From Caldisericales bacterium (GTDB lineage Bacteria > Caldisericota > Caldisericia > JAAYUI01), in the NCBI GenBank assembly GCA_012517765.1, contig JAAYUI010000010.1:104558-168557 (forward strand): a stretch of 64,000 bases of DNA. The letters run 5' to 3'. A model generated the notes under the pieces. The model ran no database searches. It was not told the DNA's origin and worked only from the letters and a program-made list of their open reading frames with translations. Shown piece by piece: positions 3,049-50,739 of the stretch. Within the stretch, counting starts at the first letter, position 1, and each line of letters begins with the position of its first letter. The position numbers and the translations under genes are program-made.

Positions 3049-4914
3049 CTACTTGTTCCTCAATGTAACATTGACAGTTTTTTCATCTCCTGCAGAAACA
3101 TTTATCGTTTCCGAGTATGATTTGAACCTGGCCATCCTGACCTCTATCTTATGGGTGCCCGGCACGAGCACAATACTTGAAGGAGTTGTACCCTTTACCA
3201 AACCATCGATGTATATAAAAGCCCCTGGAACATTTGACGTTATATGAACAGTTGCAGTAGTTTTTACAGGTGGCGGTGTGGTTGGGGTGATTGATCCTGA
3301 ATTATTATTGTTTTTGCTACCGCTGTCTGGTTTTGGTGCTGTGCCGTCCTGCCCTCCGCTCTGGTTTTGGCTACCACTTCCGGTTTGACCTGAACTCGTC
3401 TTAACATATTCCATAGCCACCAGAATCAGAACTTCCTTTGATGGATTGTCTTTAGGTTTCAAAGTAATGGTGGCAGAATAGCTATTCCCGGACAAAACCT
3501 TGTCTGGGTTCACGGCCACCCTTATTTGTTTCTGTTCTTTGGGCTGGACAACAAATGGTTCCTGGTCAAAAATTATCCAGTCTCCCTTAAATGATCTCTC
3601 AATTTCGATCTCGGATTCACCATCATTAACAACAGAGATTGACGATGCCCCAGGCACTCCTGAAACTTTGCCCCAGTCAATCTTGTTTGTAAGCACTCTC
3701 ATGAGACCCTGCTTCGAAAGCTTTATGATTCCAAGATCAAGGTTTTTGCCTGACTCCATCCTGAACTGTTGTTCATGGGTCCTGTAACCACCAAGCTCGA
3801 GCCTTAGAACATACTTGCCAGGGTACAGATCTTTTATTTCAGAATCAGTATTGGACAGTTTTTTAAAATTATCATCATCGGGCCCTTTTAAAAGCACGGA
3901 TGCCCCTTTTGGTTCAGATTTCACAAATGCTGAGGCCGGACTTGGGGAGCTGAGCATAAAAAGCAAATACCCCAACCCAACAACAATCACCGATGATAGA
4001 ACGCCAATCGTTATGTTTCTTACTTTCCTTTTGAGTTTTGGATTGGACCTCGGGATTTTTTTACTCTTGACCTTTTCGCCTTTTGGCGTTTTGTAGGATT
4101 TCATTACTATATCAAGCGCCTGCACAAGTTCGTTTGGGCTCTGGAACCTGCAGTCCGGGTCCTTGGTCATCATCCTCCTGATGATCTCTACAAGACCCTC
4201 TGGTATGTCGCTGCGAAGATTTGTCAGTGGGAAAGCCTCTTTTGAGATGTGCATGTTGAGCACACCCCATGGAGTATCGGCCTCAAACGGAACTTCACCT
4301 GCAAGCATCTCGTAGAAAACAACGCCCAGGGAATACATGTCAGATCTTGAATCAACCTTGCCACCCTGTGCCTGTTCTGGTGACATGTATTCTGGTGTTC
4401 CAACAAAAGAACCTGCTGTGGTCATCGTTGCAAAATCTCTCGATTTTGCAATCCCAAAATCCATCATTTTTACCTGGCCATCAGGGGTTACCATTATGTT
4501 CTGGCTCTTTACGTCTCTGTGCGCAATTATTCCTGACCTGTAAGCTTCACCCAGGGCAAGCGCCGACTGCTTTATGTACGAAACAGCAGTCTCAACCGGC
4601 AATGGGCCTTTTTCTTCTACGACGCTGGATAGAGTTTTTCCTTCAACAAACTCTAGAACCATGAAGTAGGTATGGTCGTCATCACCAAAATCCTTGACGA
4701 TACATATGTTGGGGTGGGAAAGTTTCATGGCTGATTTTGCTTCGCGCTGGAAACGCTCGATATAATCAGCACCTTCTGTATACTGGTCCCTGAGGATTTT
4801 TAATGCAACTATTTCACCAGTTTTGATGTCTCTGGCCAGAAAAACCTCGGCCATTCCACCACCACCCACCTTGTCATAGATCTTGTATCTTTCGCCTAAT
4901 GTTTTTCCAATCAT
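3049..4914 (-). CDS. Membrane Ser/Thr protein kinase with PEGA domain
   Basis: Kinase motifs GGGGMAEVFLA, VALKIL, HRDVKSQNIMV, DFGIA, GTPEYMSPEQ; single TM (ITIGVLSSVIVVGLGYLLFML); C-terminal PEGA-like VHITSNVPGAFIYIDGLVKGTTPSSIVLVPGTHKIEV. Confidence 0.9.
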   Translation of the reverse strand: MIGKTLGERYKIYDKVGGGGMAEVFLARDIKTGEIVALKILRDQYTEGADYIERFQREAKSAMKLSHPNICIVKDFGDDDHTYFMVLEFVEGKTLSSVVEEKGPLPVETAVSYIKQSALALGEAYRSGIIAHRDVKSQNIMVTPDGQVKMMDFGIAKSRDFATMTTAGSFVGTPEYMSPEQAQGGKVDSRSDMYSLGVVFYEMLAGEVPFEADTPWGVLNMHISKEAFPLTNLRSDIPEGLVEIIRRMMTKDPDCRFQSPNELVQALDIVMKSYKTPKGEKVKSKKIPRSNPKLKRKVRNITIGVLSSVIVVGLGYLLFMLSSPSPASAFVKSEPKGASVLLKGPDDDNFKKLSNTDSEIKDLYPGKYVLRLELGGYRTHEQQFRMESGKNLDLGIIKLSKQGLMRVLTNKIDWGKVSGVPGASSISVVNDGESEIEIERSFKGDWIIFDQEPFVVQPKEQKQIRVAVNPDKVLSGNSYSATITLKPKDNPSKEVLILVAMEYVKTSSGQTGSGSQNQSGGQDGTAPKPDSGSKNNNNSGSITPTTPPPVKTTATVHITSNVPGAFIYIDGLVKGTTPSSIVLVPGTHKIEVRMARFKSYSETINVSAGDEKTVNVTLRNK

Positions 4915-20570: not shown

Positions 20571-21556
20571 TTGCCTTCTCCATGTTTCTCAAGGTGTTCC
20601 CTGAATCTCGAGAGAATGTCATTCATCTGGGAAAAAGTTTTTCCTGCAACTGCCTCTTCCCTAAACTTCGATGCGCCAGGAAGACCTTTCACATACCACG
20701 CCCAGTGTTTTCTCATCTCGCTAACGCCGACCTTTTCACCCCTCATATTCACTTCAAGGTCGAGGTGCTCCATCATCACCGAGAACCTTTCCTTAAGTGG
20801 AATGATTCTTCTGCCAAGTCCATCCATTTCATCTTTAATCCATTCAAAAGCCCATGGTGCTCCGAGTGTCACCCTTCCTATCATTGCAGCATCTGCGCCA
20901 GCATCAAAAACGTCCAGCGCATCTTTACCATTTTTAATGCCACCATTGGCAATTACGGGCATTCTAACAGTCTGCTTGATTGCCCTGATATGTTCCCAGT
21001 CAAATGGACCAGCAAATCCCTGGCTGACATAGCAACAGTTGAGAGCAAATGCCGATGCTCCGGCCATCTCACACAATCTGGCAATTTCACTGGCAACCGG
21101 AAACCCTCTGCGAGTGCCAATTCTTGTCTTGACAGTAACAGGAAGCGATGTTGACCTGACCATCGCCTCAACAATACGGGCAATGAGGCAGGGATCACCC
21201 ATAAGGGCCGATCCGGAGCCAGTCCTGACCACTTTTGGCTCCGGACAGCCACAATTGAGGTCTACAAAATCTGCTCCAGCCTGTTCCACATACTTCACTG
21301 CCTCGGCAAGGTGCTCCGGTTTTGAGCCAAAAAGTTGTATGGTTACAGGATGTTCTTGCTCAACAATTTTGAGCATCTCAAAAGAAACCCTGTTTTTGTG
21401 CAATAGACCCTGTGCTGAAACAAACTCGGTATAAACAAGATCTGCACCATAACGCTTGCACAAAATCCGGAATGGTATGTCGCCAATCCCGGCAAGGGGG
21501 GCCAGCACAAGCGGACCTTTTATTGTTTTATTCCCTATGCTCCACGTTTTTGTCAT
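20567..21556 (-). CDS. dus: tRNA-dihydrouridine synthase
   Basis: LVLAPLAGIGDIPFRILCKRYGADLVYTEFVSAQGL; DLNCGCPEPKVVRTGSGSALM; VIANGGIKNGKDALDVFDAGADAAMIGR. Confidence 0.93.
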   Translation of the reverse strand: MTKTWSIGNKTIKGPLVLAPLAGIGDIPFRILCKRYGADLVYTEFVSAQGLLHKNRVSFEMLKIVEQEHPVTIQLFGSKPEHLAEAVKYVEQAGADFVDLNCGCPEPKVVRTGSGSALMGDPCLIARIVEAMVRSTSLPVTVKTRIGTRRGFPVASEIARLCEMAGASAFALNCCYVSQGFAGPFDWEHIRAIKQTVRMPVIANGGIKNGKDALDVFDAGADAAMIGRVTLGAPWAFEWIKDEMDGLGRRIIPLKERFSVMMEHLDLEVNMRGEKVGVSEMRKHWAWYVKGLPGASKFREEAVAGKTFSQMNDILSRFREHLEKHGEGK

Positions 21557-22322
21557 AAAGGGCCTTTAGTCCATAAAGCGAGAGGAACGGGTCAAATCTT
21601 GACACGGTTGTTGTAACAGTCGAAATAAGGTTGAGGAGGCCACCGGTGGCTATGACTGTTGGCTGTTCATCCATGCTCTTTGACATCTCGACTGCTATCC
21701 TGTCTACAAGGCCTGCAAAACCAAACGTTATTCCAGCTCTCATCGAATCGATGGTGTTTCTGCCAAGAGCAGTTTCAGGCACCGCGATTTCGATCCTTGG
21801 GAGTTTTGCTGTCATTGTAGTCAATGAATTCAGCGCTGATATGATTCCTGGCGCAATGGCCACACCCATAATCTCGGGTTTTCTCGAGACGGCCACAAAA
21901 GCAGTGGCCGTCCCGAATGATACGATAATTGCTGGCAAGGAATGTCTTACGGTTGCACCTATTGCAAGACAAAGAAGGTCTGAGCCAAGCTCTTTTGGGT
22001 TCTCTGCCTGTATGCCCATTCCGGTTTTTATGCCAGGTTTGACAACAATGCTATTTTTGGCAAGAACCTTTTCGATGGCCCTCTCCATGAGCGGGGTCAC
22101 AGGGGGTACCACCGAAGATATTATGGCACCCTCAAACTGGTTTGGCTCAAGCTTGTCCTCCTTGAGAAGGGACCTGAGCATGATCGAATATTCATCAGAG
22201 GTCTTTATTGTGTCTGTTGCAACCCTGAAATTGGCAATAAGGCTGACAGAATCAAACACCCCAAACTTAATGTTTGTGTTGCCACAATCTATACAAAGCG
22301 TAAGCTTCCCTGAAGACATCAT
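21528..22322 (-). CDS. coaX: Type III pantothenate kinase
   Basis: LTLCIDCGNTNIKFGVFD; GADLLC-like GSDLLCLAIGA; VSFGTATAFVAV; AIAPGIISALNSL. Start ATG at 22322 or 22319. Confidence 0.9.
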   Translation of the reverse strand: MMSSGKLTLCIDCGNTNIKFGVFDSVSLIANFRVATDTIKTSDEYSIMLRSLLKEDKLEPNQFEGAIISSVVPPVTPLMERAIEKVLAKNSIVVKPGIKTGMGIQAENPKELGSDLLCLAIGATVRHSLPAIIVSFGTATAFVAVSRKPEIMGVAIAPGIISALNSLTTMTAKLPRIEIAVPETALGRNTIDSMRAGITFGFAGLVDRIAVEMSKSMDEQPTVIATGGLLNLISTVTTTVSRFDPFLSLYGLKALYDKNVEHRE

Positions 22323-22332
22323 AATTATATGT

Positions 22333-23064
22333 TTATGCTTCCTTTCCAACCACTTTCAACAACGGTGGAACAACGGCTGCACAGATAACCACGGCAATTA
22401 TAATCTCCAAAGGACCATTTGTCGCAGCAGCGAGTCCAGCATTCACAAGTCTCTGCGGCATTGTGCTGCCGAAGGCGTCAGTTAACAATATAGCAAGCCC
22501 CAGAGTTCCAACAGTATTAGTCAGTGTGCCAGCAATTGCAGAAAGTGACACCGAAGAACCTTCAACACGCGATCTGATAAGCAGAAAATATGTCAGAAAA
22601 CCAAGCCCAACACCAATAAAAGCTGCGATTATATTGGCCGTTGTTTCATTTCCAGTAAAGCCTTTCGCTGCAGTGAACCAGACAGTGAGAGCCACGAAAG
22701 AAACAAAAAATGAGATGAGTATCGCAGCAGTAGGCTTCATCTCACCCTGTCTGGAGAAGGCTTTCCTGACAGAAGCATAGACCCACCAAGCAACAGGGCC
22801 AATAAGTAATCTAGCAGGCATGAGTACAAACCATGGGAAACTACCCCCAAGCATAATCTGGACGACAATAGCAAAAATAATACCCAGAAGAAGGCCAACA
22901 ACTGGCCCACCAACAATTGCTCCAACAATTACAGGGATGTGCATGATGGTCATTGCGCCTGTTATGTTCGGTACCGGTATCATCGATATTCCGACAAAGT
23001 ACATCACGACCATTAAAGCACCCAAAACTCCAGCAACAGTTAACTGTTTTATGGTAATCTTCAT
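22333..23064 (-). CDS. ECF transporter S component (vitamin uptake, substrate unknown; pantothenate plausible)
   Basis: 243 aa, about 6 TM; HIPVIVGAIVGGPVVGLLLGIIFAIVVQIMLGGSFPWFVLMPARLLIGPVAW; next to coaX. Confidence 0.8.
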   Translation of the reverse strand: MKITIKQLTVAGVLGALMVVMYFVGISMIPVPNITGAMTIMHIPVIVGAIVGGPVVGLLLGIIFAIVVQIMLGGSFPWFVLMPARLLIGPVAWWVYASVRKAFSRQGEMKPTAAILISFFVSFVALTVWFTAAKGFTGNETTANIIAAFIGVGLGFLTYFLLIRSRVEGSSVSLSAIAGTLTNTVGTLGLAILLTDAFGSTMPQRLVNAGLAAATNGPLEIIIAVVICAAVVPPLLKVVGKEA

Positions 23065-23125
23065 AAAATCTCCTTTTTATTAGGGTTTGGCTTGGTTGCC
23101 CAATGCCAACCGGTGGAGATTTTAT
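23063..23125 (-). promoter_or_regulatory. Structured leader / SD-masking inverted repeat upstream of the ECF S-component gene
   Basis: Minus strand ATAAAATCTCC (23125-23115) is perfectly complementary to GGAGATTTTAT (23073-23063), which holds the SD and the first bases of the start codon. The loop has TTGGC-A-TTGG-GCAA-CCAA-GCCAA nested hairpins. Confidence 0.5.
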
Positions 23126-23223
23126 TTCATTGGCCAAAATGAGCAAGATCACAAGTAGTGACATATTTGCGAAAAATTTGTAGAATTAAACATGAAATCA
23201 AAAACAACAAGGAGGTCACGTTT

Positions 23224-30973: not shown

Positions 30974-31018
30974 AAAATGAAAAACGGGGAACCTTAATGG
31001 TTCCCCGTTTTTCATTTT
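30974..31018 (-). terminator. Long-stem intrinsic terminator after the S8 protease gene
   Basis: Perfect 20-bp stem AAAATGAAAAACGGGGAACC / GGTTCCCCGTTTTTCATTTT with 5-nt loop. Confidence 0.85.
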
Positions 31019-37507: not shown

Positions 37508-38424
37508 AAGAATTTGATGTGGCAATTATAGGTGGCGGACCCGCCGGCCTTGGTGCTGCAATATATTCAGGAAGGGCGATGTTGAAAACAGTGCTTTTTG
37601 ACAAATTTGGCACTGGCGGCCAACTCAACTCATACGAAAAGATAGCCAACTATCCTGGTTTTTTCGAGGATACACCAACATATAGGCTCTCTGAATCACT
37701 CCTTGCACATGCACAAAGGTTCGGAGCTGAAATTATCTACGACGAAATAACCTCAATAAGCGACGATGGGGAATGGAAGGTCTTGAAAGGTCTTGCAGAT
37801 TCGTACAAAGTCCGCGCCTCAATAGTGGCCACAGGCGTGAGATACAAAAACCTTGGCGTTGAAGGCGAAGAGGGGCTAAGGGGAAGGGGCGTATCTTATT
37901 GCGCCACCTGTGATGGCCCATTTTTTGTAGGCAAGGACATTGTTGTGGTGGGCGGAGGAGACAGCGCCCTCCAGGAGGCACAGCATCTCACACAATTCGG
38001 TAGGGAAGTGACCATCATCCACAGGAGGGACGAATTTAGGGCATATCCTGATCTCAGGGAGATGGTGCAAAAACACCCAAAAATAAAATGCCTTATGAAT
38101 TCAACAGTACAATCCATTGAGGGAAAAGATTTTGTGGAAGGGATAATAATAAAAAATGTTGTAACTGGAGAGATATCAAAAATGAAAACCGATGCGGTTT
38201 TCATTTTTGTTGGTCTCCAGCCAAACACTGAGTTTCTTTCCGGGTATGCTGACCTTGATGATTACGGCTATGTAAAAACTGGCGAAGACATGTCAACATC
38301 AAAAAAAGGCGTCTTTGCAGCAGGAGACATAAGAATCAAGGACGTAAGGCAGGTGATAACGGCTGTCTCCGATGGTGCAATAGCAGCACAGAGCGCATGG
38401 AAATATATGAGTTGCAGAAAGTGA
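37504..38424 (+). CDS. trxB: Thioredoxin-disulfide reductase
   Basis: GGGPAGLGAAIYSGRAML; SYCATCDGPFF (CxxC); VVGGGDSALQEA. Confidence 0.94.
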   Translation: MKEFDVAIIGGGPAGLGAAIYSGRAMLKTVLFDKFGTGGQLNSYEKIANYPGFFEDTPTYRLSESLLAHAQRFGAEIIYDEITSISDDGEWKVLKGLADSYKVRASIVATGVRYKNLGVEGEEGLRGRGVSYCATCDGPFFVGKDIVVVGGGDSALQEAQHLTQFGREVTIIHRRDEFRAYPDLREMVQKHPKIKCLMNSTVQSIEGKDFVEGIIIKNVVTGEISKMKTDAVFIFVGLQPNTEFLSGYADLDDYGYVKTGEDMSTSKKGVFAAGDIRIKDVRQVITAVSDGAIAAQSAWKYMSCRK

Positions 38425-47072: not shown

Positions 47073-47621
47073 ATGAAAAATTCATGGTTCGGTTTTCTGA
47101 CTCATCTGAGAAGCCTTATTACTGTATCAATTCTTGCTGCCCTTGCAATCGCCTCAAAGTTTGCAACCTTCTTTATTGGAGCAACAAAATTCGATCCAGC
47201 CGGTCCTGCAGTAATAATGATCGCTGGCATGATGTATGGGCCAATCGCTGGCGCAATTGTTGGAGGTTTAGCTGATTTTCTTGGTTTCCTTGTATACAAC
47301 CCTACCGGGTTCGCATGGAACCCGGTAGTGACGATTGGAAATATCTGTCTTGGTTTCTTTGCTGGGTTTTTTTATTGGATTTTTAAATATTTCTCCAAAC
47401 CAAAACAGATTACAGCATTACCAGTAATAATATCAGCTTTTGCTGGAAGGCTGATAGGATTTTTTGTCATAACATGGGGGCTTATTGCCACATACAAAAT
47501 GGACTTCTATGGAACCCTCATGGCAAGAATTCCCTCAGAACCATTTCTTATGGTCTGGTATATCGTGGTCACCCTGGCAATCATGCTCTGGGTAGAAAAA
47601 AACAAATGGAGCGAAGCATGA
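47073..47621 (+). CDS. ECF transporter S component (FolT-like)
   Basis: 182 aa, multi-TM; IAGMMYGPIAGAIVGGLADFLGFLVYNPTGFAWNPVVTIGNICLGFFAGFFY; SD GGAGGAAAAAAT. Confidence 0.75.
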   Translation: MKNSWFGFLTHLRSLITVSILAALAIASKFATFFIGATKFDPAGPAVIMIAGMMYGPIAGAIVGGLADFLGFLVYNPTGFAWNPVVTIGNICLGFFAGFFYWIFKYFSKPKQITALPVIISAFAGRLIGFFVITWGLIATYKMDFYGTLMARIPSEPFLMVWYIVVTLAIMLWVEKNKWSEA

Positions 47622-50320: not shown

Positions 50321-50739
50321 TGAAGATCAAAAAGCTCAGGCAGGACGCAATACTTCCTCAAAGAGCGCATGATACGGACGCAGGGCTCGACCTCACCACA
50401 CCGGATGAGGTCGAGCTTTTGCCTTTAGAGAGAAAGCTCGTCATGCTGGGATTTTCAATGTCCATCCCAAACGGAATGGTCGGCCTTGTTTGCCCGCGCT
50501 CCGGGCTTGCCGCCAAAAATGGCATAACCGTATTGAACGCACCAGGAATAGTTGATTCGGGTTACAGGGGAGAGGTTGGGGTCGTACTGATCAATCTTGG
50601 GAAAGATAAAATAACACTTCCAAAAGGCTCAAGGATTGCCCAGATGATGATTGTGTCATACAATGACACGCAACCGGTGTGGGCCGAAAACCTTGATGAA
50701 ACAGAAAGAGGGCAAGGCGGTTTCGGTTCAACTTCCTGA
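50320..50739 (+). CDS. dut: Deoxyuridine 5'-triphosphate nucleotidohydrolase
   Basis: AHDTDAGLDLTTPDE; GLVCPRSGLAAKNGITVLNAPGIVDSGYRGEVGVVLINLG; KGSRIAQMMI; RGQGGFGSTS. Confidence 0.96.
   Translation: MKIKKLRQDAILPQRAHDTDAGLDLTTPDEVELLPLERKLVMLGFSMSIPNGMVGLVCPRSGLAAKNGITVLNAPGIVDSGYRGEVGVVLINLGKDKITLPKGSRIAQMMIVSYNDTQPVWAENLDETERGQGGFGSTS

Follow-up and report, generated by a model that had tools for sequence, protein, structure and literature searches.

The pan motif (RF01749) is an RNA stem broken by two conserved bulged A residues; most examples occur in tandem, and they have been reported upstream of panB, panC and panD (aspartate decarboxylase), with a dimeric protein suggested in 2010 for the tandem RNAs (Weinberg et al. 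2010, PMC2864571). We found no solved mechanism for pan in the literature, and a 2022 review lists no known CoA riboswitch and calls the gap notable (PMC9971707). The RF01749 consensus places a 5-bp helix between the two bulged A. In panB-linked pan RNAs from another phylum one hairpin is clear, with the form CCG/CUUGG/A/UCC..GGA/CCGGG/A/CGG. One of these RNAs scores 31.9 bits, under the Rfam cut-off of 36.2 bits, and we therefore regard the threshold as conservative; most such RNAs also fall under it.

The stretch that we analyze, referred to as the window, comprises 64,000 nts from a Caldisericales genome, and the leader and operon described below are on its minus strand. We label the family of the window f1 and other Caldisericota families f2, f3, f5 and f7, and genomes carry handles such as G000 (the genome of the window) and G004. 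The gene order on the minus strand is an ECF transporter S component (22333..23064; PF12822, E 3e-13), then coaX, a type III pantothenate kinase (21528..22349; PF03309, E 5e-60; TIGR00671), then dusB, and an AIM24/TIGR00266 gene is the divergent neighbor upstream of the S component. The best solved relative of the S component is 4rfs_S, which we take to be the L. brevis PanT, a weak match with an E-value of 0.037. From this match and from the linkage to coaX in three families (f1, f5 and f7), we infer that the S component is probably specific for pantothenate (PanT-like). Its predicted structure has a mean pLDDT of 43.6, too poor for fold comparison. In the f3 loci examined, the S component and coaX are not neighbors. 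The G000 bin, at 2.8 Mb and 5% contamination against congeners of 1.5-1.9 Mb, may contain foreign contigs; at the ECF-coaX locus the window contig shows synteny with relatives.

The original prediction described a perfect 11-bp inverted repeat enclosing a nested hairpin upstream of the ECF gene, and re-reading the sequence finds both exactly in place. In minus-strand order, the left arm ATAAAATCTCC (23125-23115), which is the complement of the Shine-Dalgarno (SD) and start region and also appears in the fold and the repeat scan, is followed by ACCGGTTGGCATTGGGCAACCAAGCCAAACCCTAATAAAAA and by the right arm GGAGATTTTAT (23073-23063), which runs from the SD GGAG (23073-23070) to the start codon (ATG at 23064-23062). 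The 67-nt leader RNA has a folding energy of -24.1 kcal/mol (z = -4.9), which none of 200 shuffles reaches. The inner hairpin, CGG/UUGGC/A/UUGG/GCAA/CCAA/GCCAA/A/CCC in the centroid fold, extends from 23112 to 23083 and consists of a lower stem, a 5-bp middle helix, one bulged A per strand, an upper stem and a loop; in f1 its 3' end lies 9 nts before the SD. The 5' bulged A (23104) is found in all 19 hairpins that we aligned by hand. On the 3' strand the pan register puts the bulged A at 23086, one of three A residues (23088-23086) where the fold is degenerate, and because of this ambiguity a reading with three middle pairs, shared with G004, is also possible. Within the window this is the one strict two-bulged-A hairpin, versus a mean of 0.08 in shuffles, for a descriptor set after the site was seen.

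The inner hairpin is kept in all five f1 genomes examined. Three genomes of the same genus have near-identical leaders, with differences confined to the loop of the hairpin (GCAA, GTAA, ATAA); variable columns amount to 2/31 in the hairpin and 7/79 upstream, which is weak evidence of conservation. G004, from the sister genus, retains the AIM24, ECF, coaX, dusB order with a diverged leader, where the alignment to the window has CCGG..GGCAUUG..CAAGC..AA.CC in common. Between the two genera the closing pair of the upper stem changes from G-C to C-G, a middle G-C pair becomes G-U, and the hairpin center differs in length by 2 nts. The nested hairpin is thus conserved, with some compensatory changes in the second genus. 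The expectation of a structured leader for an operon linked to pantothenate and CoA is supported by this hairpin and by the identities of the ECF S component and coaX. A covariance model of the f1 leader (R1), searched in the class and the phylum, identifies one strong site per genome in the five f1 genomes and none in the rest of the 54 Caldisericota genomes. Among the weaker R1 matches elsewhere, those inspected align mainly to the SD flank and were discarded.

Rfam scans of the window and of the leader report nothing relevant, and RF01749 is silent at the site. The original statement that no described class was recognized is nevertheless revised, since the hairpin is laid out like the pan motif, a resemblance that we noticed after the fact. 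Like pan, it lies in the leader of a pantothenate-pathway operon, and in the pan register it has one bulged A per strand, separated by five pairs. This geometry is present in the window and in three same-genus genomes, with the register ambiguity in the AAA run; the G004 hairpin, with two broken pairs among the five of the middle helix, does not have the pan geometry. The differences concern the genes, which for pan are biosynthetic (panB, panC, aspartate decarboxylase) and for f1 are a transporter S component and coaX; the copy number, as pan is mostly tandem whereas f1 leaders carry a single hairpin (a single clear hairpin is also seen in the f7 and in the panB-linked copies); and the stem, CCGGU-A-UC in pan versus UUGGC-A-UUGG at this site, which is below Rfam detection. 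The RF01749 cut-off is passed in none of the 54 Caldisericota genomes, and none of nine stretches immediately upstream of panB in Caldisericota has a pan RNA. Two of the weak RF01749 matches elsewhere in the phylum were examined; they are without pan-pathway context and were taken as chance.

The S component also lies next to coaX in f5 and f7, and the leaders there are structured RNAs with covariation. In the 10 f5 and f7 leaders examined, each strand of the hairpins has one bulged A, and five pairs separate the two. The f5 leaders (L012, L015, L018, L019, L020) have tandem hairpins of pan geometry below a conserved TTGCAA-N16/17-TAAAAT, and the 3' strand of the second hairpin holds part of the SD. 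The f7 leaders have a single pan hairpin, with the SD abutting its lower stem. On an f5 leader, the best RF01749 match has 17.8 bits and runs along the whole leader with both hairpins in register; on an f7 leader, the best same-strand match has 22.0 bits with the first hairpin in register; both are below the cut-off. These leaders resemble that of f1 in belonging to the orthologous operon and in having a pan-geometry hairpin near the start codon, which in f5 and f7 touches or overlaps the SD. They differ in that f5 has two hairpins and f7 carries the pan consensus GGUAUC..GAACC and a further hairpin, located early in the coding sequence or in a short upstream ORF, while f1 has one divergent hairpin. 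With the f5 tandem hairpins, pan occurs ahead of genes other than those reported for it.

We then compared the f1 site with pan models trained without any f1 sequence. In a set of 14 distinct pan hairpins that excludes f1, 95.5% of the cells are paired and 11/11 pairs have two-sided changes; 0/500 shuffles reach either the pairing share or the number of two-sided changes. Model R2 was built from equal-length hairpins (panB-linked, f7 and one from f5), and not from MAFFT alignments, in which the helices of short hairpins are misaligned; model R3 is broader. For both, the best local match is 23112-23083 on the minus strand, exactly the stretch of the inner hairpin, at full length and with the bulged A in register, with scores of 12.0 bits (R2) and 12.3 bits (R3) and an E-value of about 0.005 in 151 nts (0.0055 for R3). 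With R3, f1 copies score 12.3-13.1 bits, compared to 9.8-15.8 bits for f5 pan hairpins outside the training set. Over the whole 64-kb window the site is third best for R3, with an E-value of 2.3 and three other sites scoring about equal; R2 applied genome-wide finds no f1 site. The match is therefore persuasive only jointly with the gene context. Neither R2 nor R3 matches the G004 hairpin, and this is the main reason why our confidence in the pan reading is moderate. Together with the scores below the Rfam threshold, it leads us to file the site as pan-like and not as a member of RF01749.

The outer arms are a different matter. A shuffled 64-kb window contains about 1.9 perfect 11-bp inverted repeats within 60 nts, which makes the arms alone unremarkable. 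The window has further perfect inverted repeats of at least 11 bp, some with longer arms, at 30974-31018, 38177-38209, 47302-47328, 50385-50416 and 4331-4393. The left arm contains a -10-like TAAAAT (23119..23124), located 16 nts past a -35-like TTGCTC (23141..23146). That this TAAAAT might be a -10 box had been given as a caveat to the original prediction, and the caveat has gained weight, as the -35-like partner and the spacing persist in the sister genus (TTGTCT-N16-TAAAAT in G004, at nearly equal distance to the hairpin); in f5 leaders the equivalent position is taken by TTGCAA-N16/17-TAAAAT or TAGAAT. The stretch from -35 to -10 has 15/28 identity between genera, no better than a gap-optimized stretch upstream, and in a simple promoter scan TTGCTC-N16-TAAAAT is below the cut-off; the same scan flags no alternative upstream promoter on the minus strand. 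We favor the promoter reading, which these sequence comparisons do not prove. If it holds, the left arm corresponds to the -10 region of the promoter and would be largely or wholly absent from the RNA.

As first proposed, transcription would start upstream of 23125, and an 11-bp P1 helix would sequester the SD and the AUG and be opened or closed by the nested hairpin. The strong fold of the leader agrees with this, as does the 4-bp CCUU/AAGG pairing that G004 retains at the same place, and such a P1 could coexist with a pan-type core. Against it, the arm overlaps TAAAAT, with a -35-like TTG at 16 nts in both genera and no other upstream promoter flagged, repeats of this length are expected by chance, and the arm shows no covariation, being invariant in the genus of the window and mostly lost in the sister genus. 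The SD-masking arm is thus poorly supported as the core of a switch, and we consider this explanation improbable. Alternatively, the palindrome TTGGC..GCCAA at the start site might be a DNA operator bound by a repressor, with no RNA structure involved. Dyad symmetry just past a -10 box is the classic position for an operator, and variation within the genus is restricted to the center of the dyad. The 2-nt change in length of that center, the conserved unpaired A on one side and the G-C to C-G swap are more RNA-like, however, and the f5 and f7 counterparts covary as RNA, which makes an operator very improbable.

A more serious competitor, which we still consider unlikely, is a lineage-specific 5' hairpin unrelated to pan that regulates the ECF-coaX transcript or protects it by stabilizing the mRNA. 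The structure common to the two f1 genera has a lower stem, a 3-bp middle (GGC/GCY), a bulged A as well as UUGS/SCAA; in place of a clean 5-bp helix there is an internal loop (A/CAA or U/AA). The strong R1 matches, moreover, are confined to f1. On the other hand, clear pan hairpins in f5 and f7 share the operon, a similar position and the 5' bulged A, and the copies in the genus of the window fit the full pan layout. We slightly favor the explanation that the ECF S component-coaX(-dusB) mRNA carries the hairpin at its 5' end, or close to it, as a single and divergent RNA of the pan type, which would limit translation of the genes for pantothenate uptake and phosphorylation when there are enough CoA precursors. 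The match is good, not conclusive, and suggests that import of vitamin B5 is controlled by a pan element in these bacteria.

For the pan-type RNA we propose that transcription would start near 23112, from TTGCTC-N16-TAAAAT. An effector, either a protein or a metabolite of the CoA pathway, would bind and stabilize the hairpin when pantothenate or CoA is plentiful, and the bound hairpin, 9 nts before the SD, would hinder ribosome access and lower the production of PanT and CoaX. That a stabilized hairpin would hinder initiation is suggested by the position of the SD, which is partly inside the hairpin in f5, abuts it in f7 and lies just past it in f1. The f5 switch would be the more direct one, given that its second hairpin includes part of the SD; a single hairpin, as seen in f1 and in f7, would be compatible with one binding site. 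For Caldisericota in general, we put at somewhat less than even the chance that pan-type RNAs at the ribosome-binding site, double in f5, single in f7 and strongly divergent and single in f1, control pantothenate import and phosphorylation, as a minimal sensor of pantothenate/CoA status made of a 30-nt RNA, alone or with a protein.

We do not detect panB in four genomes of the window genus, in f7, in f3 or in most f5 genomes, nor panC in 5/5 f1 genomes, calls that are limited by the 69-96% completeness of these metagenome-assembled genomes. In G004, panB is found (G004:C16:23327-24100) with no detectable panC, possibly due to a missing contig or to an alternative pantothenate synthetase. Given these absences and the presence of EcfT, uptake plus CoaX looks like the route to CoA, and the bacteria of the window genus are predicted to be pantothenate auxotrophs. 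Pan-type hairpins on the import-and-kinase operons of predicted auxotrophs would mean that control of uptake is separable from control of biosynthesis. One effector acting on both would point to pantothenate or CoA rather than to a biosynthetic intermediate such as ketopantoate. If true, the reading as a minimal sensor would help to identify the pan effector, and the minimal f5 forms that overlap the ribosome-binding site would be convenient test constructs.

The f7 leaders have other features of their own. The second hairpin, CCUGUGGAACCGGGAGGAACACAAGG and variants, at about 1443-1475 in L017 with counterparts in L011, L013, L014 and L016, has no convincing Rfam match; it has compensatory stem changes, sits within the first ECF codons or in a short upstream ORF, and perhaps completes a bipartite sensor as its second half. 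In L013 and L014 (from G052 and G050), a short ORF apparently separates the pan hairpin from the start of the ECF gene, and in L014 this interval includes about five GACAGCCCCCGGCAACTT-like repeats.
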